A stretch of 24,468 bases of DNA, from positions 1-24,468 of the IMG/VR virus record IMGVR_UViG_3300033553_000177; one strand, written 5' to 3'. Positions 9,224 through 23,941 of the stretch are shown piece after piece. Every line of letters begins with the position of its first letter. The stretch's first letter is position 1. Both the position numbers and the translations under genes were made by a program. The notes under the pieces were generated by a model. The model was not told where the DNA came from. It searched no databases and saw only the letters and a list, made by a program, of their open reading frames with translations. The stretch is from a virus.

Positions 9224-9366
9224 TGATTCACAAAGAAGTCGTCGATCTTATTACCTAAAATAGACAAACGATTTATCGCTTTTTGCTTTATGATAGGGGT
9301 ATAGGTGGCGACGTAATCAAGTCGTCCCGAGTTGTAAATTTTGAATGTTTTTGTTTCGTTGTTCAT
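9220..9366 (-). CDS. Minus-strand 48-aa orphan protein, leaderless
   Basis: Read on the minus strand from ATG 9366 to TAG 9220. The product is basic and begins MNNETKTFKIYNSGRLDYVA and ends IDDFFVNH. It is the only supported leftward gene. It has the best promoter in the window, TTGACA (9401-9396), a 17-base spacer, and TAATAT (9378-9373) with a TG extension. Only 6 bases separate the -10 from the ATG, so the transcript should start at the ATG itself. No Shine-Dalgarno is present. The DNA is AT-richer than its neighbours and poor in the GATC motif seen elsewhere, suggesting a recently acquired autonomous gene (a moron) between terminase and portal. Function unknown: no signal, membrane segment or known motif. 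An alternative is that the promoter makes an antisense RNA to the terminase gene. Confidence 0.55.
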   Translation of the reverse strand: MNNETKTFKIYNSGRLDYVATYTPIIKQKAINRLSILGNKIDDFFVNH

Positions 9367-9372
9367 AGGTAC

Positions 9373-9401
9373 ATATTAGCACAAATATAGCATTATGTCA
9401 A
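9373..9401 (-). promoter_or_regulatory. Strong minus-strand promoter of the 48-aa gene
   Basis: On the minus strand: TTGACA, 17 bases, TAATAT, with TGC just before the -10. The predicted start is the A of ATG 9366. It lies back to back with the portal promoter, whose -10 is at 9430-9435, so the two promoters diverge from a gap of about 30 bases. Confidence 0.75.
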
Positions 9402-9426
9402 GTATCAACAAGCAAAAGCGGAAAAG

Positions 9427-9435
9427 TGATATTAT
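9427..9435 (+). promoter_or_regulatory. Leaderless promoter of the portal gene
   Basis: TGATATTAT is an extended -10 (TATTAT at 9430-9435). Six bases later comes ATG 9442, exactly where transcription should start. No Shine-Dalgarno precedes this gene. The same TGATATTATA block recurs at 14737 and 21225. Confidence 0.65.
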
Positions 9436-9441
9436 AAATCT

Positions 9442-10917
9442 ATGCAAGATGATAACCCGCTAGTATTCCCTAAACAGATCGATAAGGCGCGACTCGAGCG
9501 CTATCGGCACTATGACGAATTATACGAGGGCGAGCATTTCGAGGCCTTTTCTGTTAAGATCCCGGGAGAATTCTCATCTCAATATAAAAAACTCCGATAT
9601 ATTACGGCCAATTTCGCCGGACTTATGAGCCGCGTTGTTGCCGATATGCTATTCGGTGAGGCGATCACGATCGATGTTGAGGAGGATAAGAATCAGAAGT
9701 TTATCGATGGCCTGGTCCATCAGAACGACCTCATTAATCAGCTTTACGAGAGCTCGATCATCAATTCCCGCCGCGGGATGGATGTCTTTAAAATGCGAAT
9801 CGGCAAACGCAATCCCCTCGATCCTACGGCAAAGGCCGAGATCATTATCGAGCAAGTCGGGGCCCAGATCTATTTCCCTCAATTCGATAACAAGGCAGCC
9901 CGGAACGTAACGACTCAGGATATTATCGCGACGACATTCGCCCAGAACGGCAAAACCTATCTCCACAAGGAAACACATCAGCCCGGCCAGATCACGCATG
10001 AGGTGTTCGAGTATGATCTCAAACAAGGGAAAATCATTTCGGCCGAGATGCCGGAGGATTTCGGATTCCTCCCGATCGAAAAGACTCTCGTCAATCGATC
10101 ACTCGTATTCGCTATCCCAAACTATCGGGATGGTAAATACTGGGGACCATCAGACTATAAGGATCTCGAGTCCCTATTTTTCGCATTGAATAACCGACTC
10201 ACAAAGACCGACAATATCCTCGACAAGCACTCGGACCCTATTCTGGCCGTCCCTCCAGGCGTTATCGATGAGGATGGTAAGGTTAAAAAGGAATCTCTCG
10301 GCATGTTCGAGGTAGATAACGAAAATCCCGGATTCAACAAACCGGAGTATATCGTCTGGAACGCGAACCTCGATAGCGCATTCGTAGAGATCGAGAAATT
10401 GATCGAGATGCTATTCATGTTCTCCGAGATCGCACCGGCAACAATGGGCGCAGACAAAAACGGCCAGGCAGAATCCGGCCGCGCTCTCAAATTCAAACTC
10501 CTCGCCACTATCCGCAAGCGTAACCGAAAGATCTCATATTACGATCTCCTGATTAAAGAGATTCTCCAAACGGCCCAGGAACTCGCGATCGCCTGGAAAA
10601 TTGATATCGATGGTGTACGCCCTAGCGCGGCAGAACGTCCGAAAATTCAATGGGGTGATGGCGTTATTAACGACGAAACCGAGCAAGTCGAGAACGCCAC
10701 AAAGCGTATCGATGCCGGCATTTCATCTCGTGCAGATGAGATCGCTCGCCTGGATGATATCACGCCAGAGGAGGCTCGAAAGAAAGTCCAAGAGATCGAC
10801 GACGAATCAGGTCCTAAACTCCCCGATCTCGGAAATCCTGGCGGCACTCCGAATCCTCCAACTCCACCAACGCCTCCGGGCCCTAACGATCCAACACCGC
10901 CAACACCGGGAGCCTAG
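9442..10917 (+). CDS. Portal protein (SPP1 gp6-like)
   Basis: 491 aa, normal for SPP1-type portals, forming the dodecameric DNA gate at one capsid vertex. The N-terminal part carries RLERYRHYDELYEGEH and a helix TANFAGLMSRVVADMLFGE; the central clip/stem region contains NRLTKTDNILDKHSDPILAVP, and then ESGRALKFKLLATIRKRNRK, which is typical of the family. The last 35 residues form a Pro/Thr/Gly-rich tail (repeated P-T-P-P) not needed for the portal fold. The Pro-rich scaffold N-terminus at 11954 looks similar. Translation probably begins on a leaderless mRNA (see the promoter at 9427). A 3-base gap leads to the minor capsid gene. Confidence 0.9.
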   Translation: MQDDNPLVFPKQIDKARLERYRHYDELYEGEHFEAFSVKIPGEFSSQYKKLRYITANFAGLMSRVVADMLFGEAITIDVEEDKNQKFIDGLVHQNDLINQLYESSIINSRRGMDVFKMRIGKRNPLDPTAKAEIIIEQVGAQIYFPQFDNKAARNVTTQDIIATTFAQNGKTYLHKETHQPGQITHEVFEYDLKQGKIISAEMPEDFGFLPIEKTLVNRSLVFAIPNYRDGKYWGPSDYKDLESLFFALNNRLTKTDNILDKHSDPILAVPPGVIDEDGKVKKESLGMFEVDNENPGFNKPEYIVWNANLDSAFVEIEKLIEMLFMFSEIAPATMGADKNGQAESGRALKFKLLATIRKRNRKISYYDLLIKEILQTAQELAIAWKIDIDGVRPSAAERPKIQWGDGVINDETEQVENATKRIDAGISSRADEIARLDDITPEEARKKVQEIDDESGPKLPDLGNPGGTPNPPTPPTPPGPNDPTPPTPGA

Positions 10918-10920
10918 CTT

Positions 10921-11853
10921 ATGGCAGATCGCGGCCCCGTAAAAGTCAGGGATCAGGCTATTAATGCTCTTATCGAGCTATATAAAAAGACGTTCGCCAA
11001 AATCTCAAAAGAGCTCATCGATGCGACTGAGGGCGGTAAAATCTCTCGCGCAAAATTAATGGTCCGTGTAAATATAGAGCTCGAGGCCCTGGGCGTGGAT
11101 GTGGAAAAGTTCGTCAAAACTGAAATCCCGAAATATTATAACGATGGCGCGTCTATCGCCCTCCAGGATCTCCGGAAACTCGGAGTCGACTTATCTAGCG
11201 CCGGATCGGCCGTAATCAACAGGGCGGCCCTCCAGGCACTCGTGGATGAAACGTCCGGCGCTATTTATGAGGGCATTACTGGGATCTCCAGGAACGTATC
11301 GAATATCATCGGCGAGACTACTCGTAAACAGCTCACCATGACGATCGCAGAGGGCAAGCTCACCGCGGAAACTCGAAAAACGATCGCAGCCGGACTCAAG
11401 CAACAGCTCGAGGAGCGCGGGATCGCAGCGCTCAAAGACAAGGCCGGCCGCGAATGGACGTTCGATCGTTATACGTCAATGCTCACCAGGACCAAAGCCG
11501 TAGAGGCCCGCAATCAAGGGCTCGCAAATAAGATGGTTGAATATGGCTATGATCTCGTGCAGATCTCGAACCACGGCTCAAAGCATCTCGCCTGTGCAAG
11601 GTGGGAGGGCCGCATCGTATCAGTAACCGGCCAGACGCCAGGCTATCCCACACTCGCCGAGGCAACGAATGACGGCCTATTCCATCCGAACTGTGAACAC
11701 GCCGCAAACGTGATTGATCCAAAGCTCGCCAAAAATACGGAAGTCTACGACAATCCATATCTCCGAATGAGTCCGGAGGAACGCGCCGCCGACGATCTAA
11801 AATTCCGTCAGCGCAACCTCAAACAGCCCGTCCCGGACCGGGCCAAAGCATAA
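10921..11853 (+). CDS. Minor capsid protein (MuF/Phage_min_cap2-like)
   Basis: 310 aa. The N-terminal two-thirds is helical; the C-terminal part contains TRTKAVEARNQGLANKM and then a Cys/His-bearing segment: GSKHLACARWEGRIVSV, PGYPTLAEATNDGLFHPNCEH. This is the hallmark of the min_cap2 family, encoded next to the portal and carried inside or at the neck of the head. The product likely associates with the portal and may enter the host with DNA, but its exact role is not settled for the family. Start: ATG 10921, 3 bases after the portal stop, with GGGAG upstream. Confidence 0.85.
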   Translation: MADRGPVKVRDQAINALIELYKKTFAKISKELIDATEGGKISRAKLMVRVNIELEALGVDVEKFVKTEIPKYYNDGASIALQDLRKLGVDLSSAGSAVINRAALQALVDETSGAIYEGITGISRNVSNIIGETTRKQLTMTIAEGKLTAETRKTIAAGLKQQLEERGIAALKDKAGREWTFDRYTSMLTRTKAVEARNQGLANKMVEYGYDLVQISNHGSKHLACARWEGRIVSVTGQTPGYPTLAEATNDGLFHPNCEHAANVIDPKLAKNTEVYDNPYLRMSPEERAADDLKFRQRNLKQPVPDRAKA

Positions 11854-11858
11854 CCCTC

Positions 11859-11890
11859 TTGACTTATCCACACCTTTTCCACAATAATAG
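11859..11890 (+). promoter_or_regulatory. Possible promoter for scaffold and coat genes, overlapping a DnaA-like box
   Basis: TTGACT (11859-11864) is followed 18-20 bases later by AATAAT/TAATAG. An exact TTATCCACA (11864-11872) and a one-mismatch copy TTTTCCACA (11875-11883) fill the spacer. The -10 is ambiguous and a second candidate, TAATAA at 11897-11902, exists. The position before the most strongly expressed structural genes supports a promoter. Confidence 0.4.
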
Positions 11891-11914
11891 TCGATGTAAT
11901 AAGTAACGATCCAA

Positions 11915-11943
11915 TAGCGGACACGGACCGCGTTAAAAACGGA
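11915..11943 (+). repeat. Hairpin leader motif, copy 2 (before scaffold gene)
   Basis: TAGCGGACACGGACCGC then GTTAAAAACGGA, matching copy 1 at 6966-6995 with one base missing and one changed. The GCGG/CCGC pairing is kept despite the changes in the loop, which suggests selection for the stem. The GGAGGG ribosome-binding site follows at once. Confidence 0.6.
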
Positions 11944-11953
11944 GGGAGATCAG

Positions 11954-12664
11954 ATGCCAGAACCTATACAACCAACGCCACCAGTAGCAACACCACCAAC
12001 GGGGACACCCCCTGTTGATCCAGGAGCAACGCCTCCGCCAGCAACGCCGCCGACGCCACCAACTGGAGAGGTAGACCTAAAAACTCTATCAGCGGAACAG
12101 CTACAGCAAGTTTTAGAGAACCCGAATCTCTGGAATCTACCACGCGTCAAAGAATTGCGCGATCAAGCGGCCGAGGCTAAAACCCTCAAGGACGCAGCGA
12201 CCGCCGCAGAGAATAAACGCCTGGAGGATAACAAAGAATTCGAGACACTCGCGGAGTCCCGCAAAACGGACCTCGAGACGGCCCAGGGCCAGATCAAAAC
12301 TATGCGGATCGATCAAGCACTCACGAACAAATTAGTTCCCGAGGGCATTGTAGACCTGGATGCGGCACTCAAGCTCGTAGACCGTAGTAAACTCACGATC
12401 GACGATAATGGAGTGGTAAGTGGTATAGATGAAGTCCTCGCATCTCTCAAAACGGACAAAGCTTATTTATTTAACAATACGGGTACACCTCCAGATCCTA
12501 GTCTCGGAACGCCATCCAATCCAACAGGCGGCACTCCACCAACGGGACCGGCTAAGTTTAAACGAAGTCAGCTCCGGGACGCGAAATTCTACACGGAAAA
12601 TCGCGACGAGATTATAAAAGCCCAAGCGGCCGGACTTATCGAGGATGATATCACGCCCAAATAA
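11954..12664 (+). CDS. Capsid scaffolding protein
   Basis: 236 aa directly upstream of the coat gene, the standard place for a scaffold. Residues 1-38 are a Pro/Thr-rich low-complexity segment; residues 45-120 form a highly charged helix with coiled-coil character (QAAEAKTLKDAATAAENKRL and on), as in GP20/DUF4355-type scaffolds. A second Pro/Gly-rich linker near 176-200 is followed by a short helical C-terminal domain that could bind the coat protein. Scaffolds assemble the prohead and then leave. The ribosome-binding site is GGAGGGAGATCAG. The assignment rests on position and composition more than on motifs. Confidence 0.75.
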   Translation: MPEPIQPTPPVATPPTGTPPVDPGATPPPATPPTPPTGEVDLKTLSAEQLQQVLENPNLWNLPRVKELRDQAAEAKTLKDAATAAENKRLEDNKEFETLAESRKTDLETAQGQIKTMRIDQALTNKLVPEGIVDLDAALKLVDRSKLTIDDNGVVSGIDEVLASLKTDKAYLFNNTGTPPDPSLGTPSNPTGGTPPTGPAKFKRSQLRDAKFYTENRDEIIKAQAAGLIEDDITPK

Positions 12665-12690
12665 GCAAATTCTCGAAAGGAATTAACGTA

Positions 12691-13596: not shown

Positions 13597-13617
13597 TCGA
13601 CCCGGGATCACCTGTGG

Positions 13618-13646
13618 AAAAGTCCTCCAATTTCGGAGGACTTTTT
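13618..13646 (+). terminator. Intrinsic terminator after the coat gene
   Basis: AAAAGTCCTCC, a 6-base loop AATTTC, GGAGGACTTTT and a short T tract. The stem is perfect and is followed by TTTTTC. It ends the scaffold/coat transcript. Confidence 0.9.
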
Positions 13647-13851: not shown

Positions 13852-13887
13852 GATAAAGCTTAATCAGCATTAAATAGGAGATTTCAC

Positions 13888-14646
13888 ATTAGTATCAAAC
13901 CTGTAATTCTAGCGATCGTAATATCGGTCGCGGCCCTCGTAGCGACTCCGGTCCCGGCGAGCGCTCTCACAAATATTAAGTATAGATCGAGCACGAATAC
14001 TCTCGATTTCTTAACAATGGGATTCGTCCAGGAGCCAACACCGGATCCAGTTATCAAGGTCCAGGAATTGCCGGCGGAACCCTCGCCCACAAAACCACCC
14101 GAACCAAAGCCGGATCGTAAATATACGGTCCAAGAGGGCGACAACCTCTCAAAAATTGCCGATCAGAATAGCACAACCTGGCCTCGATTATGGAATAAGA
14201 ATCTCGATCTCAAAGATCCGAACCTTATCTATATCGGCCAGATTTTAATTATTCCCCCAGAATCGGAAGTCCTAAAGGATCGGGAAGTGCCCGCCATTCA
14301 AGCGCAGACGGCCGCTCCTGGCGTCCGATCGTACAATTCGGCCGGGAACACATACGCGCCCGGGAATTGCACCTGGTACGTTAAAAACAGGCGTCCGGAC
14401 CTCCCGGGAAATCTCGGCAATGCGAACACCTGGCAATATATGGCTCAATCATACGGCCTCCCGACTGGATTAACTCCACGCGCGGGCGCGGTGGGGACGA
14501 CTGGAGCCGGCGATCTCGGCCATGTTGTCTATGTCGAGCGAGTAAATAGCGATGGAACGATCCTCATATCTGAGATGAATTTCGCCGGGCTCTATTCGCA
14601 GCGGTCCAGGACCGCGAATGCCTCCGAATTTCAATACATATATTAA
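13888..14646 (+). CDS. Secreted LysM-CHAP peptidoglycan hydrolase with AUU start
   Basis: The first ATG of this frame is at 14017, but the frame is open upstream and reads a textbook signal peptide: a Lys-containing N-terminus, hydrophobic ILAIVISVAALVA, and an ASA cleavage site at residues 24-26. No ATG, GTG or TTG starts it; ATT at 13888 does, 7 bases after an AGGAG site. The protein is then 252 aa: signal 1-26, a Pro-rich linker, LysM at about 79-123 (KYTVQEGDNLSKIA to GQILIIP), and CHAP with Cys161 (GNCTWYV), His212 (DLGHVVYV) and the polar residue in ISEMN (229-231). CHAP domains cut peptide bonds of peptidoglycan. Because it is exported by itself it could act at entry, in wall remodelling or in holin-independent lysis. 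It is a separate transcript unit from the GH25 lysin. Confidence 0.82.
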   Translation: MSIKPVILAIVISVAALVATPVPASALTNIKYRSSTNTLDFLTMGFVQEPTPDPVIKVQELPAEPSPTKPPEPKPDRKYTVQEGDNLSKIADQNSTTWPRLWNKNLDLKDPNLIYIGQILIIPPESEVLKDREVPAIQAQTAAPGVRSYNSAGNTYAPGNCTWYVKNRRPDLPGNLGNANTWQYMAQSYGLPTGLTPRAGAVGTTGAGDLGHVVYVERVNSDGTILISEMNFAGLYSQRSRTANASEFQYIY

Positions 14647-14655
14647 GGCCATGTC

Positions 14656-14728
14656 TTATCCACAGTTTATCCACGGGGCGATTTCAATCTGTTAGCCCTG
14701 TGGATAACTCTGCTCTATATGGGGATAA
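14656..14728. promoter_or_regulatory. Cluster of DnaA-box-like motifs
   Basis: In 73 bases of gene-free DNA: TTATCCACA exact at 14656-14664, TTATCCACG at 14667-14675 (one mismatch), TGTGGATAA exact on the other strand at 14699-14707, and TGGGGATAA at 14720-14728 (one mismatch, minus). This is the bacterial DnaA-box consensus. It may be a replication origin using host DnaA or a DnaA-controlled promoter region for the glycosyltransferase operon. No adjacent AT-rich unwinding region is obvious. Confidence 0.55.
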
Positions 14729-14736
14729 CTTGCTTA

Positions 14737-14745
14737 TGATATTAT
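14737..14745 (+). promoter_or_regulatory. Promoter of the glycosyltransferase operon
   Basis: TGATATTAT, an extended -10 identical to that of the portal gene. Six bases later is ATG 14752. The transcript should therefore start at that ATG and carry the structured leader. Confidence 0.65.
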
Positions 14746-14751
14746 AGATCT

Positions 14752-14862
14752 ATGCAGCGGCTAAGCAATAAAACGAATCAGATATTTAAATGCCTCCAGG
14801 TCATTAGTTTAGCCGCGAATCCCTGGGGGCATTCAAGTATCGGAGGCGTATCATGCATCTAG
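14752..14862 (+). CDS. Possible leaderless upstream ORF, 36 aa, within the structured leader
   Basis: ATG 14752 lies 6 bases after the -10 box, the spacing shared by the leaderless genes here. The frame runs 36 codons to TAG 14860-14862, passing 10 bases over the start of the glycosyltransferase gene at 14853. The peptide begins MQRLSNKTNQIFKCLQVISL; it has no known motif. Ribosomes reading it would unfold both stems of the leader and end next to the downstream ribosome-binding site, which is what a translational control ORF would do. It may also be fortuitous, since the RNA structure constrains the same bases. Confidence 0.35.
   Translation: MQRLSNKTNQIFKCLQVISLAANPWGHSSIGGVSCI
14757..14833 (+). 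promoter_or_regulatory. Structured RNA leader with two interlocking stems (pseudoknot topology)
   Basis: Stem 1: GCGGCTAA (14757-14764) with TTAGCCGC (14809-14816), 8 perfect pairs, extendable by one wobble and one GC pair. Stem 2: AATGCCTCCAGG (14789-14800) with CCTGGGGGCATT (14822-14833), 12 pairs including one G-U. The order is 5' arm 1, 5' arm 2, 3' arm 1, 3' arm 2, so the stems cross as in a pseudoknot. If both cannot fit together, they would form a two-state switch. The ribosome-binding site CGGAGG (14841-14846) follows unpaired. It matches no riboswitch I can name. Confidence 0.6.
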
Positions 14863-16040
14863 TCAACAAATTCGATAAAGTCGTCGAGGTCAATGATCCG
14901 ACGAGGATCCGCAAATTCTTAAACAATGGGATGCGGGAGGCCACGCTCGAGGAGATCCAGGAGGACCGGGATCGTCGCATGCAGCAAGTCGCCCAGGCGT
15001 CGATCGCAAGCGGGACCGGATTTTATTATCAAACCGTCCGATCATCTCCGGATGGCTACGGCATGAGTCGCGATATCCTCAAACAGGAGCTATTCAGAAA
15101 AGGCGTATTTTTAACTGAGAATTATTCGGGCCAAAAAGTAGGGCTCTTATATTCCTATCCGTATGGGATCCTCCAAATGCGAAACGATATCCGGATCATC
15201 TATACGATGTTCGAGAGCGACAAGATCCCGGACGACTGGGCCGAATATCTCAAAGCGGCCGATCAGGTCCTCGTCCCCTCGAAGTGGTGTAAAGACGTAT
15301 TCGCAAAGGCCGGCATAGATGCTCAAGTGGTCCCTCTGGGCTATAACGATGAGGCGTTCACCTATGTAGATCGCAAGGTCCCCGTCGAGGAGGGCGAGCC
15401 GTTTACGTTTATCCACTATGACTCATTCAATATCCGCAAGGGATTCTCTCAAGTGCTCGAGGCATTTTCGGCCGAATTTAAAGACAATGAGAATGTAAAA
15501 ATGATCCTAAAAACGGTCCACGAGAAATCGCCGATCCCGATCATGCCATCTCAATATCCGAATATCGAAGTGATCCGGCATCGAATGAGCGAGGAGGACC
15601 TCGTGAAACTACTCGGCCGCGCAAATTGCATGGTGTACCCTAGCCTGGGCGAGGGATTCGGTATCACGCCTCTCGAGGCTATGGCAACCGGCCTCCCGGC
15701 GATCGTTCCGAATGCTCACGGAATATCTGAATATTTCCATCCTGAGTATATGCTCGAGGTAGAGATTGAGGAGATGGTCCCGGCCCTCTATCATCGATTC
15801 AAAGGCCAGAGCGTCGGGAATATGACGGTCCCTAGTGTAGAGGACCTCCGGGAGCAAATGCGCTATGCATTCAATCATCAGCGGGAAATGAAATATCTCG
15901 GGCAAAAAGCGAGCGAATACGTCAAAGCCTACACCTATAAAAAGACCGCAGCGAATCTCGCCGAGATCCTCCAGGCGTGGGATAAAAAGGATGTCGTCAA
16001 GCGCGCAGATAGCAAGTTTTTAATGGTGGAGGAGGTGTAA
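14853..16040 (+). CDS. Glycosyltransferase, GT-B fold (GT4-like)
   Basis: 395 aa, ribosome-binding site GGAGG at 14842-14846. The first 50 residues are a charged extension; after this come an N-terminal Rossmann-like domain, with KAADQVLVPSKWCKDVF near 135-150, and a C-terminal nucleotide-sugar domain with FIHYDSFNIRKGFSQVLEAF. The E-x7-E signature is intact in EGFGITPLE (Glu267 and Glu275) followed by AMATGLPAIVP. It should move an activated sugar onto an acceptor that cannot be told from sequence. It is the first gene of a block of four such proteins. Its expression is probably controlled by the structured leader. Confidence 0.85.
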   Translation: MHLVNKFDKVVEVNDPTRIRKFLNNGMREATLEEIQEDRDRRMQQVAQASIASGTGFYYQTVRSSPDGYGMSRDILKQELFRKGVFLTENYSGQKVGLLYSYPYGILQMRNDIRIIYTMFESDKIPDDWAEYLKAADQVLVPSKWCKDVFAKAGIDAQVVPLGYNDEAFTYVDRKVPVEEGEPFTFIHYDSFNIRKGFSQVLEAFSAEFKDNENVKMILKTVHEKSPIPIMPSQYPNIEVIRHRMSEEDLVKLLGRANCMVYPSLGEGFGITPLEAMATGLPAIVPNAHGISEYFHPEYMLEVEIEEMVPALYHRFKGQSVGNMTVPSVEDLREQMRYAFNHQREMKYLGQKASEYVKAYTYKKTAANLAEILQAWDKKDVVKRADSKFLMVEEV

Positions 16041-16041
16041 G

Positions 16042-16260
16042 ATGGTAAATTGTCCCGGACCACTATTCGAGGGCCAGATCCGGCCTATGGAATCATTCTC
16101 AGCACTCGAGATCCTGGCAGTTCACGGGTATAATCCCGAAACGCCAAAAGTAAAACGCGCGGCGGAATATCTCGAGCTATGGCGCGAGAAATCGATCGAG
16201 GCATCAAAGGCGGCAACCTGGCCGCTCGAGCCTGGCGATAATGCGGAGATCCGTCCGTGA
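16042..16260 (+). CDS. Small hypothetical protein between glycosyltransferases
   Basis: 72 aa, starting 1 base after the preceding stop with GGAGGAGG upstream inside that gene. Mostly helical and charged (YLELWREKSIEASKAA), with a Pro-containing N-terminus. Not recognised. It overlaps the next gene by 4 bases (GTGA), which supports coupled translation and a shared operon. Confidence 0.5.
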   Translation: MVNCPGPLFEGQIRPMESFSALEILAVHGYNPETPKVKRAAEYLELWREKSIEASKAATWPLEPGDNAEIRP

Positions 16261-17393
16261 ATGTCGCCTATTGTGGTCCCCTGTTCGATTACTCCGGATA
16301 TGGAGAGGCGAATCGACACGCCGCCGCAGCACTCCACGCGGCCGGCCTGAATGTGATCGCAGAGCCGGTCCACTATACGACTGAGCCCTCCGATTTCGGC
16401 GCCATAGGGCAGCTCATGGAGCAGCTAACGCACAACACGGGCGACTATGGGATTAAGATCATTCACACGACACCGGATCAATACAAGCGCTATATGGAGC
16501 CTGGCAAATACCACATCGGGCATTTTTTCTGGGAGACTGATCGGGTCCCGGAGGAATTCGCAGCCGGCCTCCGACTCGTCGATGAGATATGGACCGGATC
16601 TGAGGCAAATGCGGACGCGATCCGAAAGTCTGTTCCGGATGCAATAATCAGAGTTTATCCACAGGCTATCGAAACGGAGCGCGAGTGGCCGGAGACACCT
16701 TACGAGATCAATAATTTCGATGGTCATTTATTCTATTCGATATTCGAGTGGACCGATCGTAAAAACCCCCAGGGATTGCTCGATGCATACTGGCACGAGT
16801 TCCAGGACGGCGAGAATGTCGGCCTATTGATTAAAACCTATTTCCGCAATTTCGATCTCCAGAATAAGCGTATGATCCGGGAGCAAATCGAGGCGTTCAA
16901 AAAGAAATCAGGCCTAACGAAGTTCCCTCGAGTTTTTCTATACATGGATCTCATGGACCGCTCTCACGTTATGCGATTGCATAAGACCGGCGATACCTAT
17001 GTGAGCCCACACCGCGGCGAGGGATGGGGATTGCCGATCGCAGAGGCTATCCTAGCCGGCCATCCTGTTATTACGACGGGTTATGGCGGGATCTCCGAAT
17101 GGCTCCAGAATATTAATGGCGCGATGATCCTGGACTATGAGATGGTCCCACTCCGGGGAATGGATCACTCGGCCCGATGGTATGGCCGCGATCAAAAGTG
17201 GGCGGATCCCCGTATCGATCAACTCCGAACGTCTATGAGGTGGGCCTATGAAAAGACATCAAATGTCGAGATGCTCCGGCAGCGCGGCGAGGATCTAGTG
17301 ATCTCTCAATTCAACCTCAAAGCGGTAGGCGACGAAATGGCCGGCCGACTCAAGCGGATCGAATCAGCGTTCGCGAATGCGAGGAAACGATGA
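16257..17393 (+). CDS. Glycosyltransferase, GT-B fold (GT4-like), GTG start
   Basis: 378 aa, starting at GTG in a GTGA overlap with the preceding stop. N-terminal glycine motif CGPLFDYSGYGEANRHA (6-22), FFWETDRVPEEF (90-101) and GSEANADAIRKS mark the GT4 N-terminal domain; YSIFEWTDRKNPQGLLDAY (160-178) begins the donor domain. The E-x7-E signature is EGWGLPIAE (Glu255, Glu263) followed by AILAGHPVITT. All expected features are intact, so it is likely active. Acceptor unknown. An exact TTATCCACA motif lies inside the gene (16655-16663). Confidence 0.87.
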   Translation: MNVAYCGPLFDYSGYGEANRHAAAALHAAGLNVIAEPVHYTTEPSDFGAIGQLMEQLTHNTGDYGIKIIHTTPDQYKRYMEPGKYHIGHFFWETDRVPEEFAAGLRLVDEIWTGSEANADAIRKSVPDAIIRVYPQAIETEREWPETPYEINNFDGHLFYSIFEWTDRKNPQGLLDAYWHEFQDGENVGLLIKTYFRNFDLQNKRMIREQIEAFKKKSGLTKFPRVFLYMDLMDRSHVMRLHKTGDTYVSPHRGEGWGLPIAEAILAGHPVITTGYGGISEWLQNINGAMILDYEMVPLRGMDHSARWYGRDQKWADPRIDQLRTSMRWAYEKTSNVEMLRQRGEDLVISQFNLKAVGDEMAGRLKRIESAFANARKR

Positions 17394-17587
17394 GTAGCGA
17401 TAGCCAGGAGTCATACGACGGGAAATATATCCGCAATATGCGCGAGCTCTACGACAGTCCGTATATCGGATCTCGGAAAGCTCGCCGGGAGCGATTCAAA
17501 TCATCCGAGCACACTACCCAGAAAAAAACTAAAGATCAGATCCGAAAGGCCCGAAAGCGGCAACGGAAAAACAGGAGGACAACATGA
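17390..17587 (+). CDS. Small basic hypothetical protein
   Basis: 65 aa, starting in an ATGA overlap with the preceding glycosyltransferase. The C-terminal half is very rich in Lys/Arg (DQIRKARKRQRKNRRTT), suggesting binding to nucleic acid or an acidic polymer; the N-terminal half has tyrosines and serines (SYDGKYIRNMRELYDSPY). No family recognised. Its end overlaps the next start by 4 bases. Confidence 0.5.
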   Translation: MSSDSQESYDGKYIRNMRELYDSPYIGSRKARRERFKSSEHTTQKKTKDQIRKARKRQRKNRRTT

Positions 17588-17778
17588 AAATTACAATCAA
17601 AATGCATGGTATAGAGCACTCGGCGGAGTTCGATCACGAGGATATTACTCTCCCTCTAGCGCTACAAACGATCGTGTTTTTGCTCGAGGCGTCCGGATGG
17701 TCCCGCGACAATATCATCGAATTATTCAATGGTGATGGCGACGGTAAAAATAACCCGTTCGACTGGGAGATCTCATGA
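17584..17778 (+). CDS. Small acidic hypothetical protein
   Basis: 64 aa, in an ATGA overlap with the upstream basic protein and a GGAGGACAAC ribosome-binding site. It alternates strand-like (MKITIKMHGIEHSAEF) and helical (ALQTIVFLLEASGW) segments and ends with a Gly/Asp-rich acidic loop (FNGDGDGKNN). That short loop is calcium-binding-like in appearance only. Function unknown. It overlaps the next gene by 4 bases. Confidence 0.5.
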   Translation: MKITIKMHGIEHSAEFDHEDITLPLALQTIVFLLEASGWSRDNIIELFNGDGDGKNNPFDWEIS

Positions 17779-18197
17779 GTAAAAAACGCATCCTATATCT
17801 ATCGGTCCACGAGATACTGGAATATGACGAGGTGAAACTGTTCTCCGAACTCGGCCACGAAGTCTATTCCCTGGGCGCATATACGCAGCCAGGCGGCCAG
17901 GAGAATCGCAAGCGTCCTCCCCTCCCCGATCTCCCATATAATCCTCATTTTATCGAGCTCTCACTCCAATATCCAAAGGAACGCCTCCACGAGGAAATGC
18001 TCGAGGGAATCGATATCGTTATCATCATGCACGAGACGAAACTCGTTACTAATAACTGGCATCTGTTCAAACCATTTATAGAGCGCGGCGGCCGCGTAAT
18101 CTGGCGATCGATCGGCCAATCTGTCCCGGCCCGTGAGGATGAAATCCGCCAGGCTCGAGCCGAGGGACTGGAGATCGTTCGATACTCACCATCTTAA
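17775..18197 (+). CDS. Glycosyltransferase-like, N-terminal half (split gene)
   Basis: 140 aa forming only the N-terminal Rossmann-like half of a GT-B enzyme: ILYLSVHEILEYDEVKLFSE near the start, IDIVIIMHETKLVTNNW, and GRVIWRSIGQS before a TAA stop at 18195-18197. The next ORF begins at the very next base, in the same frame, and supplies the missing half. So the pair looks like one enzyme of about 345 aa interrupted by one nonsense codon (for example GAA or CAA to TAA). Alternatives are a true two-subunit enzyme or stop-codon read-through. Confidence 0.7.
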   Translation: MSKKRILYLSVHEILEYDEVKLFSELGHEVYSLGAYTQPGGQENRKRPPLPDLPYNPHFIELSLQYPKERLHEEMLEGIDIVIIMHETKLVTNNWHLFKPFIERGGRVIWRSIGQSVPAREDEIRQARAEGLEIVRYSPS

Positions 18198-18812
18198 ATG
18201 ACGATCGCCCGCAACGTCGGCGAGGATGCGATGATTCGATTCTATAAGGATCCGGACGAATTCAAAGACTGGAACGGCCGCAAGGCTATCGTGTTGAATT
18301 TCACTCAAGGACTCCGATCGCGCGGAATGTTCGTCGGACATCAAGCATGGAGGGGCTCCACACGAGGCCTCCCACGCGTTGTATATGGTCCAGGCAACGA
18401 GGATCTCGGAACGGCCGCGGGAGGCCTCCTGAGTTACGAGGAACAGCTCCAGGCCTATCGAGATCACCGCGTCTATTTCTACCACGGATCATTCCCGGCG
18501 AGTTATACTCTCACGCTCATCGAGGCGATGATGACAGGGATCCCGGTTGTAGCAGTCGGCGACGATATCGGTAATGGGGACATGTTCCCGGATCAAAAGA
18601 CATACGAGGCGACATCTATCATCCAGGACGGCATCTCAGGCCTGATCGGCAACACACCGGCAGAACTCCACGACAAAATGGATCCATTATTAAAGGACCT
18701 CAGAAAAGCACAGGCGATCTCGGCATTCGGCCGCGCTCGAGCAATAGAATTGTTCGGCAAAGCAAAGATAAAATCGGAGTGGGAGGAATATCTGAATCGT
18801 GGAAAATCCTAG
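18198..18812 (+). CDS. Glycosyltransferase-like, C-terminal half (split gene)
   Basis: 204 aa continuing in frame after the TAA. It has the C-terminal GT-B features: DAMIRFYKDPDEFKDW, a central strand RVYFYHGSFPASYTLT and LIEAMMTGIPVVAVGD, with Glu109 as the second Glu of the E-x7-E motif; the first Glu is missing. There is no ribosome-binding site close to ATG 18198 (nearest GGAG about 20 bases upstream), so it could be made only by re-initiation after the preceding stop or by read-through. If made alone it lacks the acceptor domain. Confidence 0.7.
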   Translation: MTIARNVGEDAMIRFYKDPDEFKDWNGRKAIVLNFTQGLRSRGMFVGHQAWRGSTRGLPRVVYGPGNEDLGTAAGGLLSYEEQLQAYRDHRVYFYHGSFPASYTLTLIEAMMTGIPVVAVGDDIGNGDMFPDQKTYEATSIIQDGISGLIGNTPAELHDKMDPLLKDLRKAQAISAFGRARAIELFGKAKIKSEWEEYLNRGKS

Positions 18813-18993
18813 CATCCTGAATCAGTTCGTCCTATATTACGAGCACCATGAGGATTGCCCTATGGAGGCCGCCGGCCGTCGTATGATTACCGAAAAGCGC
18901 CGGATCCTAAAGTGGTTCCGGTTCGAGGTCGCATTTATAATATTAACTATGGGAACGAAAGGCCGACATCATGATAAAACCGACAAGAGATAA
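18799..18993 (+). CDS. Small hypothetical protein, GTG start
   Basis: 64 aa, starting at GTG inside the end of the preceding gene (14-base overlap), with GGGAGGAA about 12 bases upstream. The composition is basic with one hydrophobic helix (FRFEVAFIILTM) near the C-terminus, and its end overlaps the GroES-like gene by 23 bases. Not recognised. It could be spurious, although its frame is open in an otherwise tightly packed region and leaves no gap between its neighbours. Confidence 0.35.
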   Translation: MENPSILNQFVLYYEHHEDCPMEAAGRRMITEKRRILKWFRFEVAFIILTMGTKGRHHDKTDKR

Positions 18994-19261
18994 AGTCCTG
19001 ATCGAGATCGTAACGATCGGCGACAAACGAGCCCAGGACGCCGCAGCGCGGATCCCCGGATTCGTCATTCCGGATCCAGAACTCCAGGGGATCCCAAATC
19101 ACGGGAAACTATTCGCGATCGGCGAGGACGTAGATCTCGAGGCGAATGTCGGAGATATGGTTATTTTTAGAGAGACGGCTCCCCGTGGATTCAACCATAA
19201 GGGACTCAAACTTTTTGCGGTCCACCCTCATCAAGTGCTCGCACGAGTGGAGGGCGCATAA
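18971..19261 (+). CDS. Second GroES-like (Cpn10) co-chaperonin
   Basis: 96 aa, the normal GroES length. It begins MIKPTRDKVLIEIV, like the GroES first strand. A longer loop (residues 16-40) ends in GFVIPD, where GroES has the mobile-loop G-I-V/I-L that docks on GroEL. Then come GKLFAIGEDVDLEANVGDMVIFRE, matching VGDKV-F, and LKLFAVHPHQVLARVEGA at the end, matching the family's E/DILA-V ending. It differs strongly from the groES at 4018. It may serve as a specialised cap for the coat protein, as T4 gp31 does, or for the host GroEL. It sits in the glycosyltransferase block, away from groEL, and its stop overlaps the next start by 1 base. Confidence 0.7.
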   Translation: MIKPTRDKVLIEIVTIGDKRAQDAAARIPGFVIPDPELQGIPNHGKLFAIGEDVDLEANVGDMVIFRETAPRGFNHKGLKLFAVHPHQVLARVEGA

Positions 19262-20328
19262 TGGCCCGGGTCCTGGTAGATTTTCATCACTCGAGCCTAT
19301 TACGATCACTCGTGATGTTATTCGAGGATCGTCTGGGGATGGAACTCTATCGCCCGATCGGGATGGAATGGTTCCACGAGGGATTCTGGGGCATTAATGA
19401 CGACATCAAAACAGCCGAGCAATTCCTGGGGATGCATCAGGCCTACTCCCCGGCCGACGGAACTCCGAATCTTAATATCATGAAAAACTATGGCAGCATA
19501 GGCGAGGAGGAGGATTTCGAGCGAGCCGATACGCTATTTATCGTCGAGCCCGGGCGAGTCTCATATCACAAAGCGGCACGACTGAAATTTTTCAAAGAAA
19601 ATCAATTCGATTATGTAATCGCATCAATCCCCGCCCATGTCCCCATATTTCGAGAACTTATCCACAGGTACAATCCCGGAGCAAAGCTCATCGTCCAGGT
19701 GGGGAATAACTGGAATATCGATCAATATGCAGGGATGCCGGTCCTGGCGTCTATTGCGCCGCAGCTCACCGCAGCAAACGCTATTTTTTACCACCAGGAA
19801 TTCGATCTCGAAGTGTTCGAGCCTAGCCCGGTCCCGGAGGAACGTAAGATCTACTCATTCGTAAATGTACTCCGGCAGCAAGGCGTCGCCTGGGAGGATT
19901 ATAAGCAAATGAAACGGCAGCTCTCCGATTTCACATTTAAATCATTCGGCGGCCAGAATGACGACGGTAACACGGACGGTCCACTCGAGACGGCCCGGAC
20001 CATGCGCGAGGCGATGTTTATATTCCACGTCAAACCGGGGGGCGATGGATTCGGCCACGTTATCCACAACGCCTATGCACTAGGACGGCCAATTATCACT
20101 CGCTCGAGCCACTATGAGCATCAACTGGCCGCAGAACTCATGGTCCCCGGGACATTTATCGACCTCGACAAACACGGTCGCGCCGTAGCGAAACGGATGA
20201 TTAATGAGCTATCGAGACAGCCAGAATTATTACAAGAAATGGGAGCAAAAGCAGCGGCCCGGTTCCGCGAGGTGGTAAACTATAAAAAAGAATCACAGGA
20301 GATAAAATCATGGCTCGAAAATCTGTAA
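19261..20328 (+). CDS. Glycosyltransferase-like protein, GT-B fold, signature altered
   Basis: 355 aa. The N-terminal domain includes VLVDFHHSSLLRSLVMLFEDR and the central Rossmann strands (DYVIASIPAHVP, AKLIVQVGNNWNI). The C-terminal donor domain has IFHVKPGGDGFGHVIHNAYALGRPIITR at residues 253-281 in two pieces. The E-x7-E motif of GT4 enzymes is here D-x7-N (Asp262, Asn270), so activity may be changed or lost. Two exact TTATCCACA motifs lie inside (19658-19666, 20060-20068). Starts in an ATAATG overlap with the GroES-like gene and ends inside the next gene. Confidence 0.7.
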   Translation: MARVLVDFHHSSLLRSLVMLFEDRLGMELYRPIGMEWFHEGFWGINDDIKTAEQFLGMHQAYSPADGTPNLNIMKNYGSIGEEEDFERADTLFIVEPGRVSYHKAARLKFFKENQFDYVIASIPAHVPIFRELIHRYNPGAKLIVQVGNNWNIDQYAGMPVLASIAPQLTAANAIFYHQEFDLEVFEPSPVPEERKIYSFVNVLRQQGVAWEDYKQMKRQLSDFTFKSFGGQNDDGNTDGPLETARTMREAMFIFHVKPGGDGFGHVIHNAYALGRPIITRSSHYEHQLAAELMVPGTFIDLDKHGRAVAKRMINELSRQPELLQEMGAKAAARFREVVNYKKESQEIKSWLENL

Positions 20329-20791: not shown

Positions 20792-20812
20792 AAAAAAAAC
20801 GACGCCGGGTGT

Positions 20813-20818
20813 TACTAT
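20813..20818 (+). promoter_or_regulatory. Probable leaderless promoter
   Basis: TACTAT lies 7 bases before ATG 20826; the block TATAGAGCTTATG closely resembles TATAATGAGCTTATG at 23261. No Shine-Dalgarno and no -35. This is the weakest of the leaderless set. Confidence 0.4.
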
Positions 20819-20825
20819 AGAGCTT

Positions 20826-21227
20826 ATGGATATAGGATTTTATTTATCAGTGGCCGGCGGCGTGATCGCCCTCGCAGCAATACTCGCAGCCGCGATCGTT
20901 GTGGTCCGGAGCACTACATCAAAAGAAACAGTCTCAAATCAAAAAGCATTAATCGAAACTCTCAAATCCGCAAAGGATGAGGCAAAAGAGCAGATCCTCG
21001 ATCTCCAACAAAAACACATCGACAGCTCAAAAGCGATCGCCGGCCTCCAGGGCCAGGTGGACGTCTTAAAAAATATCCCACTGAAAGAGATCTCGAGCGA
21101 CTTAAAGTCTATCGCCGGCGGTATGAATTCCCTCTCTCAAAATCAAGAAAAGATCGTCCAAATGTTCGCATCTGGAGCATCCTCTCATACTGAAAAGACC
21201 ACTACTACGACAAATATTCCGGCGTGA
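20826..21227 (+). CDS. Membrane-anchored coiled-coil protein in the lysis region
   Basis: 133 aa from ATG 20826. The frame is open further upstream, but that part is Arg/Ser-rich shadow sequence of the preceding gene. Residues 4-27 form one transmembrane helix (SVAGGVIALAAILAAAIVVV); residues 35-110 form a long coiled coil (KALIETLKSAKDEAKEQI and so on), and the tail is Thr-rich. This design resembles holin partners or spanin-like accessory proteins placed just before endolysin and holin, but no motif proves it. Translation likely starts on a leaderless mRNA. Confidence 0.6.
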   Translation: MDIGFYLSVAGGVIALAAILAAAIVVVRSTTSKETVSNQKALIETLKSAKDEAKEQILDLQQKHIDSSKAIAGLQGQVDVLKNIPLKEISSDLKSIAGGMNSLSQNQEKIVQMFASGASSHTEKTTTTTNIPA

Positions 21228-21233
21228 TATTAT
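21225..21233 (+). promoter_or_regulatory. Promoter of the GH25 lysin gene
   Basis: TGATATTAT, the same extended -10 as at 9427 and 14737, partly inside the end of the previous gene. Here a 24-base leader with a GGAGG site follows, so this gene is not leaderless. Confidence 0.6.
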
Positions 21234-21260
21234 AGAATCGTAACCATTATGGAGGGCTAA
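21233..21260 (+). repeat. Leader motif shared with the gene at 1794, copy 2
   Basis: TAGAATCGTAACCATTA followed by GGAGGGCTAA; 16 of the first 17 bases match copy 1 at 1761. Confidence 0.55.
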
Positions 21261-21263
21261 ACG

Positions 21264-22565
21264 ATGTCAGAAATTAAACTTATCGATATATCAGAACACC
21301 AGGGGACGATCAACTGGGACATTCTCCAGGACGCATACAACGCCGGCGAAATCTCGGGCGTTATCATGCGCGGCGGGTATGGATCAGCGACGGGCGTTCA
21401 AAAGGACGCTCAATACGACCGTAACCGATCGGAGGCTCGCAAACGTGGGATCCCGAATCAAACTTATGTATTCGCCTATCCAGGACGATCGACTGGAGCC
21501 ACTCACGCGCGCGGGCTCGCGCAGATCATCGGCCAACTCCAGGCCGGCGAATCAGTCTCTCTCGATATGGAGGATGAGCCAACTTACGGACGTCGACTTG
21601 TCGCATCTGATGTCGACTGGGCCCTCGATTTTATTAAGACCCTCCAGGCAGCACTCGGCCCCGTTCCCCTTACCTATATGAATTCAGATGTCCTCGCTCG
21701 ATTCGACTGGAGCCCGCTCGTCAAGGCAAATTCTGGCCTATGGCTCGCAAACTATGGATCAAACTCTGGCGTTCCGGGGATCCGCCCGGCATCCGGAGAA
21801 TGGCCTTTTATTGCGATCTGGCAATACTCGAGCCGTGGAAACGTTCGAGGGATCACTCCGCTCGACATGAATCTATTCTCAGGCGATAAGGCGGCATTCT
21901 TTAAATATGGCCTCTCAGGCACTCCTCCGGTCCAGGTTCCGGTCCCACAACCAACAGCGCCCGCTCCAGTAGCCGGCAACGGCACGAGCTATGGACTCGG
22001 AAAATCTGTTCCTGGATATGTGAATGCCGGCGATGCAAAAGCTCGAACGAATTCAAACTCGACCGTTCCGGCCGGGACATACTATGTATTTAATCAGGCC
22101 TATGGAATGGTGAATATTTCACGATCTCCTGGCGTTGCCGGATGGTGGATAAATCCTAGCGATGCTCCAGTAGCAAGCGCCCCGGCCGCTCCGTCTGGTA
22201 ATTACAAGGTCGAAAAATCGACTCCTGGATATGTAAATGCATCCGACGCCGCAGCCGGCCGAAACGCAGTAAACACGGTCCAGGCCGGAAACTATCTCGT
22301 GTTCAATACCTATAAGGGCATGGTCAACGTAACGACAAAATCGGGCGTTCCTGGATCATGGATCAATCCAACGGCAGCGAACGGCGCGGCAGCAAATCCC
22401 GCAGCACAAGCAAGCGAGATCAAAATCCCAAGCGGCGCCACACTCGGCATCATCGCCGGCCAGTGGAGCACGACAGTCGATCAGCTCGTGGCATGGAATA
22501 AGGCCAAATATCCAAGCATCACTCCGAACTATATTCAGGCCGGATGGGTTATTCGCGTTCGATAA
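21264..22565 (+). CDS. GH25 muramidase endolysin with wall-binding repeats and LysM
   Basis: 433 aa, no signal peptide. GH25 catalytic domain at residues 1-215: IDISEHQG (Asp8 onwards), VSLDMEDE with the catalytic D-x-E (Asp101, Glu103), and IWQYSSRGNVRGI with DMNLFSGD. Two tandem repeats of about 57 aa follow (243-299 and 313-369), each with PGYVNA-D, a VFN strand, GMVN and the ending W-INP; these look like wall-binding repeats. A LysM domain (386-432) ends the protein. It cuts the glycan between MurNAc and GlcNAc and needs the holin next door to reach the wall. Linkers are Pro/Ala-rich. Confidence 0.93.
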   Translation: MSEIKLIDISEHQGTINWDILQDAYNAGEISGVIMRGGYGSATGVQKDAQYDRNRSEARKRGIPNQTYVFAYPGRSTGATHARGLAQIIGQLQAGESVSLDMEDEPTYGRRLVASDVDWALDFIKTLQAALGPVPLTYMNSDVLARFDWSPLVKANSGLWLANYGSNSGVPGIRPASGEWPFIAIWQYSSRGNVRGITPLDMNLFSGDKAAFFKYGLSGTPPVQVPVPQPTAPAPVAGNGTSYGLGKSVPGYVNAGDAKARTNSNSTVPAGTYYVFNQAYGMVNISRSPGVAGWWINPSDAPVASAPAAPSGNYKVEKSTPGYVNASDAAAGRNAVNTVQAGNYLVFNTYKGMVNVTTKSGVPGSWINPTAANGAAANPAAQASEIKIPSGATLGIIAGQWSTTVDQLVAWNKAKYPSITPNYIQAGWVIRVR

Positions 22566-22595
22566 ATTTAGTGTTCAATAAAAAGGGGAATCGAT

Positions 22596-22844
22596 ATGTC
22601 ATTACAAATATCACCAATCACAAAAGAGCAAGCAACCAAGATCCTAAAGGCTCTATATTATAGCGCAGCATCAGGATTCACAGCCGGATTCGTTCTGGTC
22701 CTGGGAGGCATTCTCCCGGGCGTCCTGGATGGATCAGCTACACTCCAGGGGGCATTCGTGGCGGCCCTTATAACCGGCGGCGTCGTAGGCGCACTCAATA
22801 GCATCGCCGTAACGATAAAACAGTTATTCACACCCGCAGAATAG
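22596..22844 (+). CDS. Holin
   Basis: 82 aa, directly after the GH25 lysin with an AAGGGG site. Two transmembrane helices (about 25-47 and 53-76, the first with FTAGFVLVLGGILPGVLDG, the second with FVAALITGGVVGALNSIAV) separated by a short turn, with charged ends. This is a class II-like holin that makes the membrane hole which frees the endolysin. The assignment rests on size, topology and position. Confidence 0.72.
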   Translation: MSLQISPITKEQATKILKALYYSAASGFTAGFVLVLGGILPGVLDGSATLQGAFVAALITGGVVGALNSIAVTIKQLFTPAE

Positions 22845-23217
22845 CCCTCTTTTACCACTCCCCCGGCCCAAATACACAAGAATTAACGAAATTTTGTGTA
22901 TTAGCGAATTAACAGGGGTGTTGTTCTATTTTTGTTCACTCCCCTACCCTACCGAAAAATAAATTTGACAGGGTGTCAAGGTGTGAAACCCAAAATCGGG
23001 GGACACCCTGGGTAGAGCAGGGGAGTGCCCCATAGCTTATCGATATACTAATCACTCTATGTATTGATAGTCGGTCCAGGCCGTGATAGTTTAAGCAAGT
23101 GGATCCGTCCAACAAAGACCCGGAACACGTCGCAAATGCGCGGCGGCCGACGACAAATCGGGGGGCCGATCGGCGATGATAATTACCCGCGAAACCATCG
23201 CCCGGAGCAACAGTCAG
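22845..23217 (+). other. Gene-poor region rich in inverted repeats
   Basis: No convincing gene in about 370 bases. Inverted repeats: AATACACAA (22871-22879) with TTGTGTATT (22894-22902); a nested structure with CACTCCCCT (22937-22945)/AGGGGAGTG (23019-23027), CTACC (22949-22953)/GGTAG (23011-23015) and CAGGGTGTC (22969-22977)/GACACCCTG (23002-23010); the operator-like palindrome TTGACAGGGTGTCAA (22965-22979); GCCGATCGGC (23165-23174); and GGCGATG (23172-23178)/CATCGCC (23196-23202). A weak TTG-started frame (23064-23276) lacks protein-like composition. It could be a structured RNA, an operator site, a replication origin or a packaging site. Confidence 0.6.
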
Positions 23218-23256
23218 AACTCGACGCAATACTAGAATGTGTCGAGTTTTGTTTTT
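23218..23256 (+). terminator. Intrinsic terminator before head-completion genes
   Basis: AACTCGAC (23218-23225), 15-base loop, GTCGAGTT (23241-23248), then TTGTTTTT. It ends the lysis transcript or any RNA from the repeat region. Confidence 0.82.
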
Positions 23257-23260
23257 GCGC

Positions 23261-23266
23261 TATAAT
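23261..23266 (+). promoter_or_regulatory. Leaderless promoter of the head-completion genes
   Basis: Perfect TATAAT immediately after the terminator. Six bases later is ATG 23273, so the first transcribed base should be the A of the start codon. No clear -35 and no TG extension. Confidence 0.65.
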
Positions 23267-23272
23267 GAGCTT

Positions 23273-23941
23273 ATGAGTACACGACGAAACTATATATCCA
23301 CAGCTCAAGGCAACGGCGCGACGGACGATCAGATCGCCCTCGCGGAGGAAATTATCGATGCTTATGTCGGCCACCAGGACCGATTCGATAAGCACGAGCA
23401 CACGGGCGAGGCGACGTCTCTCGTCGATCAAATCGTTATCGATACGAGCAACCGCGGACATTTAAATCGTGTGAATGACTTTTATAAGGGCGATGTCCTG
23501 GAGATTATTTCCGGGACCGCAGCCGGCGAGATCCGATTCATCGAAAGCTCCGACACGGACGCTCGATCGATCACATATTCCGGGACCGCGATTACTGGAT
23601 TCGCAGTCGGAGACATTTTCAAAATCTATCAGCTCGCAAAGTTCCCACGTCAAAAAGACGTATTCTCCAGGACTAACGATGCCGGCGTCGTTCGTTATTA
23701 CAAAGCAATTCCCCGCCAGGTCGTGGACGCTACGATCGCCCAGGTGGGATATATCATCGAACAGGGCGACGACTATTTCGCCGGCGACGAGTCAGACGTT
23801 ACGAGCGAGAATATCGGCAATTATGGCTATAGCCGTGGATCCGCAGCCGGCAATCAAACAGCGCTTATTAAAATGACGGCTCCACAGGCCCGCCACTTGC
23901 TCAAGGGGATCAAAAACTCGCTAGGCAGAATCGAGGTATAA
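23273..23941 (+). CDS. Probable head-completion or structural protein
   Basis: 222 aa from ATG 23273; the frame is open to 23237 but that part runs through the promoter. The protein begins MSTRRNYISTAQGNG, then a helical region (DDQIALAEEIIDAYVG), a beta-rich middle (VLEIISGTAAGEIRFIES, FAVGDIFKIYQL), and an end with LLKGIKNSLGRIEV. Position before two neck-type genes suggests a head-tail adaptor; the beta part resembles a fibre or decoration fold. Not certain. There is no Shine-Dalgarno. Confidence 0.55.
   Translation: MSTRRNYISTAQGNGATDDQIALAEEIIDAYVGHQDRFDKHEHTGEATSLVDQIVIDTSNRGHLNRVNDFYKGDVLEIISGTAAGEIRFIESSDTDARSITYSGTAITGFAVGDIFKIYQLAKFPRQKDVFSRTNDAGVVRYYKAIPRQVVDATIAQVGYIIEQGDDYFAGDESDVTSENIGNYGYSRGSAAGNQTALIKMTAPQARHLLKGIKNSLGRIEV

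Follow-up and report, generated by a model that had tools for sequence, protein, structure and literature searches.

Predicted leaderless genes and a candidate pseudoknot leader in a phage family with Patescibacteria as likeliest hosts

Introduction

In phage lambda, the cI mRNA made from PRM starts at a 5'-terminal AUG, and in phage T4 an H-type pseudoknot near the 5' end of the gene 32 mRNA controls a phage leader. Here we describe predicted gene starts of the first kind, and a structured leader that recalls the second, in a 24,468-base virus record (IMGVR_UViG_3300033553_000177; the whole record is called the window below), in which a first-pass annotation made from the sequence alone had proposed that several genes with a -10 promoter box 6 or 7 nucleotides (nt) before the ATG give leaderless mRNAs. 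Whereas lambda cI is a single regulatory gene, the genes with this arrangement in the present phage family encode portal, adaptor, tape-measure, minor-head and glycosyltransferase proteins; and in contrast to T4 gene 32, stem 1 of the pseudoknot lies inside a predicted leaderless short open reading frame (ORF) that overlaps the next gene.

In bacteria, TA-led genes have been defined by a TANNNT motif about 12 bp upstream of the start codon and by the lack of a Shine-Dalgarno sequence (SD) (Zheng et al. 2011, PMC3160421). The genes of the window and its family show these features (a box above chance, no SD and an AUG start), and they share with those of the survey the TANNNT distance, the lack of SD and a box near TATAAT at medium GC content; the present ones belong to phages, structural genes among them, and their phylum would be an addition to the list (PMC3160421). 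That survey covered 953 bacterial genomes, and its available portions name no Patescibacteria (PMC3160421). Leaderless genes are reported to be common in mycobacteria and corynebacteria too (PMC4633059, PMC3890552); these belong to another phylum and their transcripts were studied by experiment, while those described here are predicted. In termination-reinitiation coupling, an upstream stop overlaps a downstream start that has an SD, as in the leader described below, whereas here the upstream ORF has 31-38 codons, begins at a predicted 5' end and contains a pseudoknot (PMC6728339).

No report of leaderless genes in Patescibacteria, the Candidate Phyla Radiation or Saccharibacteria was found in the available portions of the open-access literature, preprints excluded. 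Within those portions of Patescibacteria-related papers, the word 'leaderless' is used of mRNA in connection with YchF and of protein secretion in the title of a reference; promoter and Shine-Dalgarno terms are absent from the accessible parts of two recent papers on Patescibacteria phages, as is 'leaderless', which was sought in one of them.

Results

The box-ATG pairs of the window and the genes that follow them are listed below, with the exception of the gene behind 14752, which is treated separately (aa, amino acids).

9427..9441, plus strand: extended -10 box (TGA TATTAT, box at 9430) and 6-nt spacer before the portal start, ATG at 9442
9442..10917, plus strand: portal protein gene, predicted leaderless (phrog_533, E 1.5e-48; no SD)
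9373..9401, minus strand: divergent promoter TTGACA-17-TAATAT, box at 9378, 6 nt from the ATG at 9366
9220..9366, minus strand: 48-aa ORF (MNNETKTFKIY...), predicted leaderless; without PHROG match, with homologues in relatives
14737..14751, plus strand: extended -10 box (TGA TATTAT, box at 14740) and 6-nt spacer, ATG at 14752
20813..20825, plus strand: TACTAT and 7-nt spacer, weak candidate (4/6 matches), ATG at 20826
20826..21227, plus strand: possibly leaderless gene for a 133-aa product, seemingly hydrophobic near its N terminus (by eye); no SD, no PHROG or Pfam match
23261..23272, plus strand: TATAAT and 6-nt spacer, ATG at 23273
23273..23941, plus strand: head-tail adaptor-like gene, predicted leaderless (phrog_541, E 1.2e-7)

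All of these pairs were present as first annotated, four at exactly 6 nt and the 20813 pair at 7 nt. None of the five starts has an SD 3-13 nt upstream (9442, 23273 and 20826 were scanned and all five were read), and an SD precedes 24 of the 33 called starts in the window, in keeping with the statement that most other genes have one.

To examine the spacing, relatives were gathered by portal, terminase and glycosyltransferase queries (capsid and adaptor queries contributed little), genes were called from codon usage alone so that promoters and SDs were ignored in the choice of starts, and boxes with at least 5/6 matches to TATAAT were counted at spacings from 0 to 44 nt before starts without SD. 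In 17 phage contigs, 48 of 261 such starts carry a box at exactly 6 nt, while each of the other 44 spacings is represented at 0-9 starts. The peak recurred in a held-out set of 31 further loci (18/163; the highest count elsewhere was 10, at spacing 0), with binomial P values of 8e-42 and 3e-12, respectively, which overstate independence because genes share descent. The 66 genes fall into 28 homology groups, and every one of them starts with ATG (48/48 and 18/18). When the letters of the consensus were rearranged, TATAAT at spacing 6 was found at 69 of 424 starts without SD and the best of 19 other arrangements at 31, and TATAAT at the other spacings from 0 to 15 occurred at 4-27; because the rearranged consensus scores far lower at spacing 6, AT-richness alone fails as a cause and was rejected. 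The suspicion that so constant a spacing exceeds chance was thus borne out in the relatives.

Alignment with related phages, which had been proposed as a check, showed box and spacing to be kept, with the portal genes as the largest group. Among 33 portal homologues, 27 have a box of at least 5/6 matches 4-11 nt from the start, 17 of them at exactly 6 nt; the '6-7 bases' of the first-pass annotation is not invariant, as the portal homologues span 4-11 nt. In the window and four relatives whose portals are 69-92% alike, the box and the 6-nt length of the spacer are kept while the letters of the spacer have changed. The head-tail adaptor has such a box at exactly 6 nt in 5/8 homologues, and further leaderless candidates in the family include the tape-measure protein, minor head proteins and a tail-like protein. 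Homologues of the divergent 48-aa ORF, 49-73% alike, occupy the corresponding position in four relatives, with TAATAT at 6 nt, TACATT at 6 nt and two TAnnnT boxes at 7 nt (the last two by eye). No box at spacing 6 was found in capsid (0/37), terminase (0/25) or scaffold (0/39) homologues. The 20826 gene is without homologue among the family contigs compared, and its site is a weaker candidate, with a 4/6 box at 7 nt.

Two promoter styles occur among the predicted leaderless genes. The portal type is TG-extended (20/27 portal boxes; 18/48 leaderless genes) and mostly lacks a -35 element; the other has a perfect TTGACA 16-18 nt upstream (7/48, where shuffles expect about 0), and our guess is that these mostly small genes are early genes. 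In the window, the TGn extension is present at 9430 and 14740 and absent at 23261, and TTGACA is present at minus 9378 and absent at 9430 and 23261.

As a separate observation, an SD is found at most starts in most of the close relatives (G001-G005, G007, G012) as in the window, in contrast to the distant relatives (G006, G010, G015ph, G016ph, G018), which mostly lack it (SD at 6/47 starts in G006 and 5/39 in G015ph). This contrast suggests different hosts or initiation regimes.

The start at 14752 appears to head a structured leader in front of a glycosyltransferase gene.

14752..14862, plus strand: 36-codon ORF from the predicted 5'-terminal AUG, stop inside the glycosyltransferase start region
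14757..14766, plus strand: pseudoknot stem 1, 5' strand
14789..14800, plus strand: pseudoknot stem 2, 5' strand
14807..14816, plus strand: pseudoknot stem 1, 3' strand
14822..14833, plus strand: pseudoknot stem 2, 3' strand
14853..16040, plus strand: glycosyltransferase (GT4-like) gene (PF00534, E 3.1e-17; SD GGAGG 6 nt upstream)

The arrangement recurs in three relatives (G002, G005 and L199) whose first glycosyltransferase is 57-64% alike to that of the window. The counterparts of the 14740 box are TATGAT at 6 nt in L199 and TAnnnT at 7 nt in G002 and G005 (by eye), the leader ORFs have 38, 31 and 32 codons in G002, G005 and L199, respectively, and all stay open past the glycosyltransferase start, which is preceded by an SD-like GGAG in each. 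Measured from the first base of the glycosyltransferase start, the leader ORF stops 9 nt further on in the window (G000), G002 and G005 and 13 nt further on in L199. As regards frameshifting from the leader ORF into the glycosyltransferase frame, a stop in that frame was read by eye within the leader of the window. Two interleaved stems of 10-12 pairs are present in 4/4 leaders with letters that vary between phages, and stem 1 starts 4-7 nt from the predicted 5' end. When scored with trimmed stems (at maximal stem length G005 was missed), all four leaders reached 55-58, while 300 shuffles of each stayed at or below 50 (0/300 reached the leader score) and 13 control regions of the window scored 0-36. 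A search of the whole window against Rfam gave no match at E<=1, and the leader element is apparently new.

An ordinary gene at 14752 was rejected because no protein homologue was found among the family contigs compared, the SD-led glycosyltransferase gene follows and the RNA stems are conserved. The first-pass annotation was thus right about a box 6 nt from an ATG without SD at this site, and what follows it would be a regulatory leader with a short ORF and not a normal gene; we read it as a leaderless start converted to a structured, overlapping leader. The overlap has the geometry of termination-reinitiation coupling, with the upstream stop past the downstream start and an SD present, and such coupling is its likeliest function, with a purely structural role close behind. 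Anti-SD pairing with stem 2 could be read by eye for the window and for L199 but for neither G002 nor G005, and this idea was dropped.

Directly upstream of the 14740 promoter, at 14650-14730, lie inverted repeats (TTATCCACAG...CTGTGGATAA), also found in G002 and G005, which we take to resemble DnaA boxes. The glycosyltransferase cassette extends from 14853 to 20328, between capsid and lysis genes, and a GDP-mannose dehydratase gene stands apart from it at 2306-3373. The LysM-CHAP lysin-like gene at 13880-14646 has an apparent ATT start (AGGAG, then ATT AGT ATC AAA; by eye) followed by a signal-peptide-like stretch (by eye), and its start counterparts are ATT AGT in G002 and ATG AGT in L199 (by eye). 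Another kind of 5' leader element, a short GC stem-loop followed by (G)TTAAAAACG, is found at 6968-7008 and 11917-11953, before TerS-like and scaffold genes. Relatives preserve its stem in other letters (GCGG/CCGC, GCCG/CGGC, GTGC/GCAC, GTCG/CGAC and GTTGG/CCAAC; further variants are CGTGG/CCACG, GTGG/CCAC, GGTG/CACC and CCGG/CCGG), and it is possibly a second pseudoknot.

The first-pass annotation had hinted at Actinobacteria as hosts; instead, GroEL affinity, terminase relatives and spacing-6 peaks point to Patescibacteria, which are probably the hosts. GroEL from 11/192 Patescibacteria genomes, in one case on a 909-kb contig, shares 57-63% identity with the phage protein; the remaining Patescibacteria among the matches listed do not exceed 54%, and 58 Omnitrophota do not exceed 46%. 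A search of 100 kb of one of the GroEL-matching genomes, G086, against Rfam gave LSU and 5S rRNA only. Terminase relatives in sequenced genomes lie on contigs of three metagenome-assembled genomes (MAGs), two of Patescibacteria and one of Omnitrophota, where binning may mislead because the contigs are phage-sized; a terminase match at E <= 1e-15 was found in 3/379 Patescibacteria genomes, two being the MAGs already found. In two Patescibacteria MAG samples, 17/165 and 29/275 starts without SD have the box at spacing 6 (background 1.3 and 2.1), in a mixed sample of 16 Patescibacteria contigs (from a set of 20) it occurs at 6 and 7 nt in 10 and 10 of 164, and in G197 in 2 and 3 of 22. Across 59 whole Patescibacteria genomes, TATAAT-6-ATG was counted 1213 times, compared with 830 at spacing 10 and 545 for the reversed control, and 41/59 genomes have more boxes at 6 than at 10. 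Because of these counts, leaderless genes appear to be common, though unevenly spread, across the Patescibacteria.

An Omnitrophota host was rejected: no one spacing clearly stands out in the Omnitrophota MAG sample (3, 3 and 2 at 6, 7 and 8 nt), and the GC content of the phage contig (0.405) is far from that of the chromosome sample (0.644). The phage GroEL gene (4275-5855) is accompanied by two small GroES-like genes (4018-4272 and 18971-19261; by eye).

By PHROG and Pfam matches, the window encodes terminase, portal, minor head, scaffold, capsid and head-tail adaptor-like proteins, and also a GH25 endolysin, a LysM-CHAP protein, GroEL and glycosyltransferases. Bases 1-30 resemble a Nextera transposon adapter, which makes it probable that the record's left end is an artefact. 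The 24.5 kb contain 323 copies of GATC and 289 of TCGA, seemingly far over expectation.

Discussion

Overall, we consider it quite probable that the portal, adaptor and divergent ORF mRNAs are leaderless or nearly so, with Patescibacteria as likeliest hosts; the 14740 promoter would drive a leader ORF whose likeliest role is coupling. The proposal of leaderless mRNAs is supported by the spacing enrichment and by conservation in relatives and stands as a strong prediction for the portal, the adaptor and the divergent ORF; it is to be modified for the 14740 leader and is weak for 20813. What emerges, again as a strong prediction, is that gene starts of a known kind occur in a group for which our searches gave no earlier report of them; to this is added a leader element that appears to be new.

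Under the proposed mechanism, the portal, the head-tail adaptor and the small divergent ORF would be transcribed from host-type sigma-70 promoters with TATAAT-like -10 boxes, the portal box being TG-extended and the divergent promoter having the TTGACA -35. Transcription would start on the start codon or within a few bases of it, so that the mRNAs would be leaderless or nearly so, and translation would start with the 5'-terminal AUG being recognized directly, SD pairing playing no part, a mode that the window phage would use beside its ordinary SD-led genes and that would be common to its relatives and to Patescibacteria. The 14740 promoter would make a leader RNA whose 5'-terminal AUG opens the short ORF through the H-type pseudoknot, ending just past the glycosyltransferase start; ribosomes loading at this AUG would open the pseudoknot and stop at the glycosyltransferase start, where the SD would allow re-initiation.

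The strongest competitor concerns this last step. The glycosyltransferase mRNA may simply be leadered, with the AUG at +1 left over from a leaderless ancestor and control exerted by the pseudoknot alone, an explanation that we hold to be quite plausible, if somewhat less so than its negation. In its favour, among more distant relatives a box of at least 5/6 matches often stands 6 nt before the first glycosyltransferase gene itself (11 homologues), and the protein sequence of the leader ORF is not conserved; against it, both the predicted 5'-end AUG and a reading frame that remains open beyond the glycosyltransferase start persist in 4/4 divergent leaders.

It is also conceivable, but unlikely, that the promoters are real and the leaders merely very short (1-5 nt), which would make 'leaderless' approximate. 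Sigma-70 normally picks a start site 6-9 nt past the -10 box, and the portal box lies at 7-11 nt in 9/33 homologues, both as expected for short leaders, whereas the narrow maximum at exactly 6, seen across 28 gene groups while 7 stays no higher than background, is not.

Similarly doubtful is a host from another phylum that uses leaderless genes, which are known from Actinobacteria, Chloroflexi and Deinococcota (PMC3160421). The link to Patescibacteria is indirect, through GroEL and MAG contigs, yet the GroEL affinity is to one Patescibacteria group, terminase relatives occur in two Patescibacteria MAGs, and GroEL chains in PDB, the one comparison that went beyond genomes of Patescibacteria and Omnitrophota, reach 450 bits at best versus 674. 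Finally, that the boxes are AT-rich, unstructured starts for SD-less leadered translation, with an incidental likeness to a -10 element, is very improbable: starts without SD are indeed AT-rich upstream and spacings 0 and 11 are raised (27 and 20), but neither the rearranged consensus nor any other spacing from 0 to 15 approaches TATAAT at 6, and TG extensions and TTGACA boxes accompany it.

Several observations weigh against the reading that we prefer. The gene caller was simple, and in the window alone spacing 6 is not enriched (among 328 ATGs followed by at least 30 codons, 3 boxes lie at 6 and 4 at 8); relatives and real gene starts were needed because this count over all ATGs showed no peak at 6. 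Portal boxes lie off spacing 6 in 10/33 homologues (at 4 or 7-11 nt) and are missing in 6/33, and because of these other distances many portal leaders would be 1-5 nt long and not zero. The 68 glycosyltransferase matches, paralogues included, comprise 16 with an SD and 24 with neither signal. At the leader, comparison with the family contigs detected no protein homologue of the 36-codon ORF, and in 1/4 (L199) the ORF lies in a different frame with respect to the glycosyltransferase. As for the host, one of the three terminase matches is in an Omnitrophota MAG, so misbinning is possible, and the phage GroEL could have been acquired from elsewhere. The peaks in two GroEL-matching genomes are modest and spread (G086, 7/110 at 6 nt and 7/110 at 7 nt; G141, 5/73 at 6 nt and 7/73 at 9 nt), and in 15/59 Patescibacteria genomes boxes at 10 outnumber those at 6. 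Codon-usage correlation with the window is 0.46-0.69 for GroEL-matching genomes and 0.54-0.71 for others, and was set aside as an uninformative host marker.

More tentatively, Patescibacteria and their tailed phages may share a widespread leaderless mode that in this phage clade has been turned into a new cis-regulator, in which leaderless initiation at the short overlapping ORF threaded through the pseudoknot would gate translation of the glycosyltransferase operon. If leaderless genes are common in Patescibacteria, gene starts in MAGs of the phylum and in its phages could be called better, host prediction would gain an extra marker, and late phage genes would lend themselves to testing how initiation works at a 5'-terminal AUG. 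The leader with the pseudoknot (14752-14852) would in turn provide a compact system for asking whether loading at a 5' AUG can drive re-initiation.

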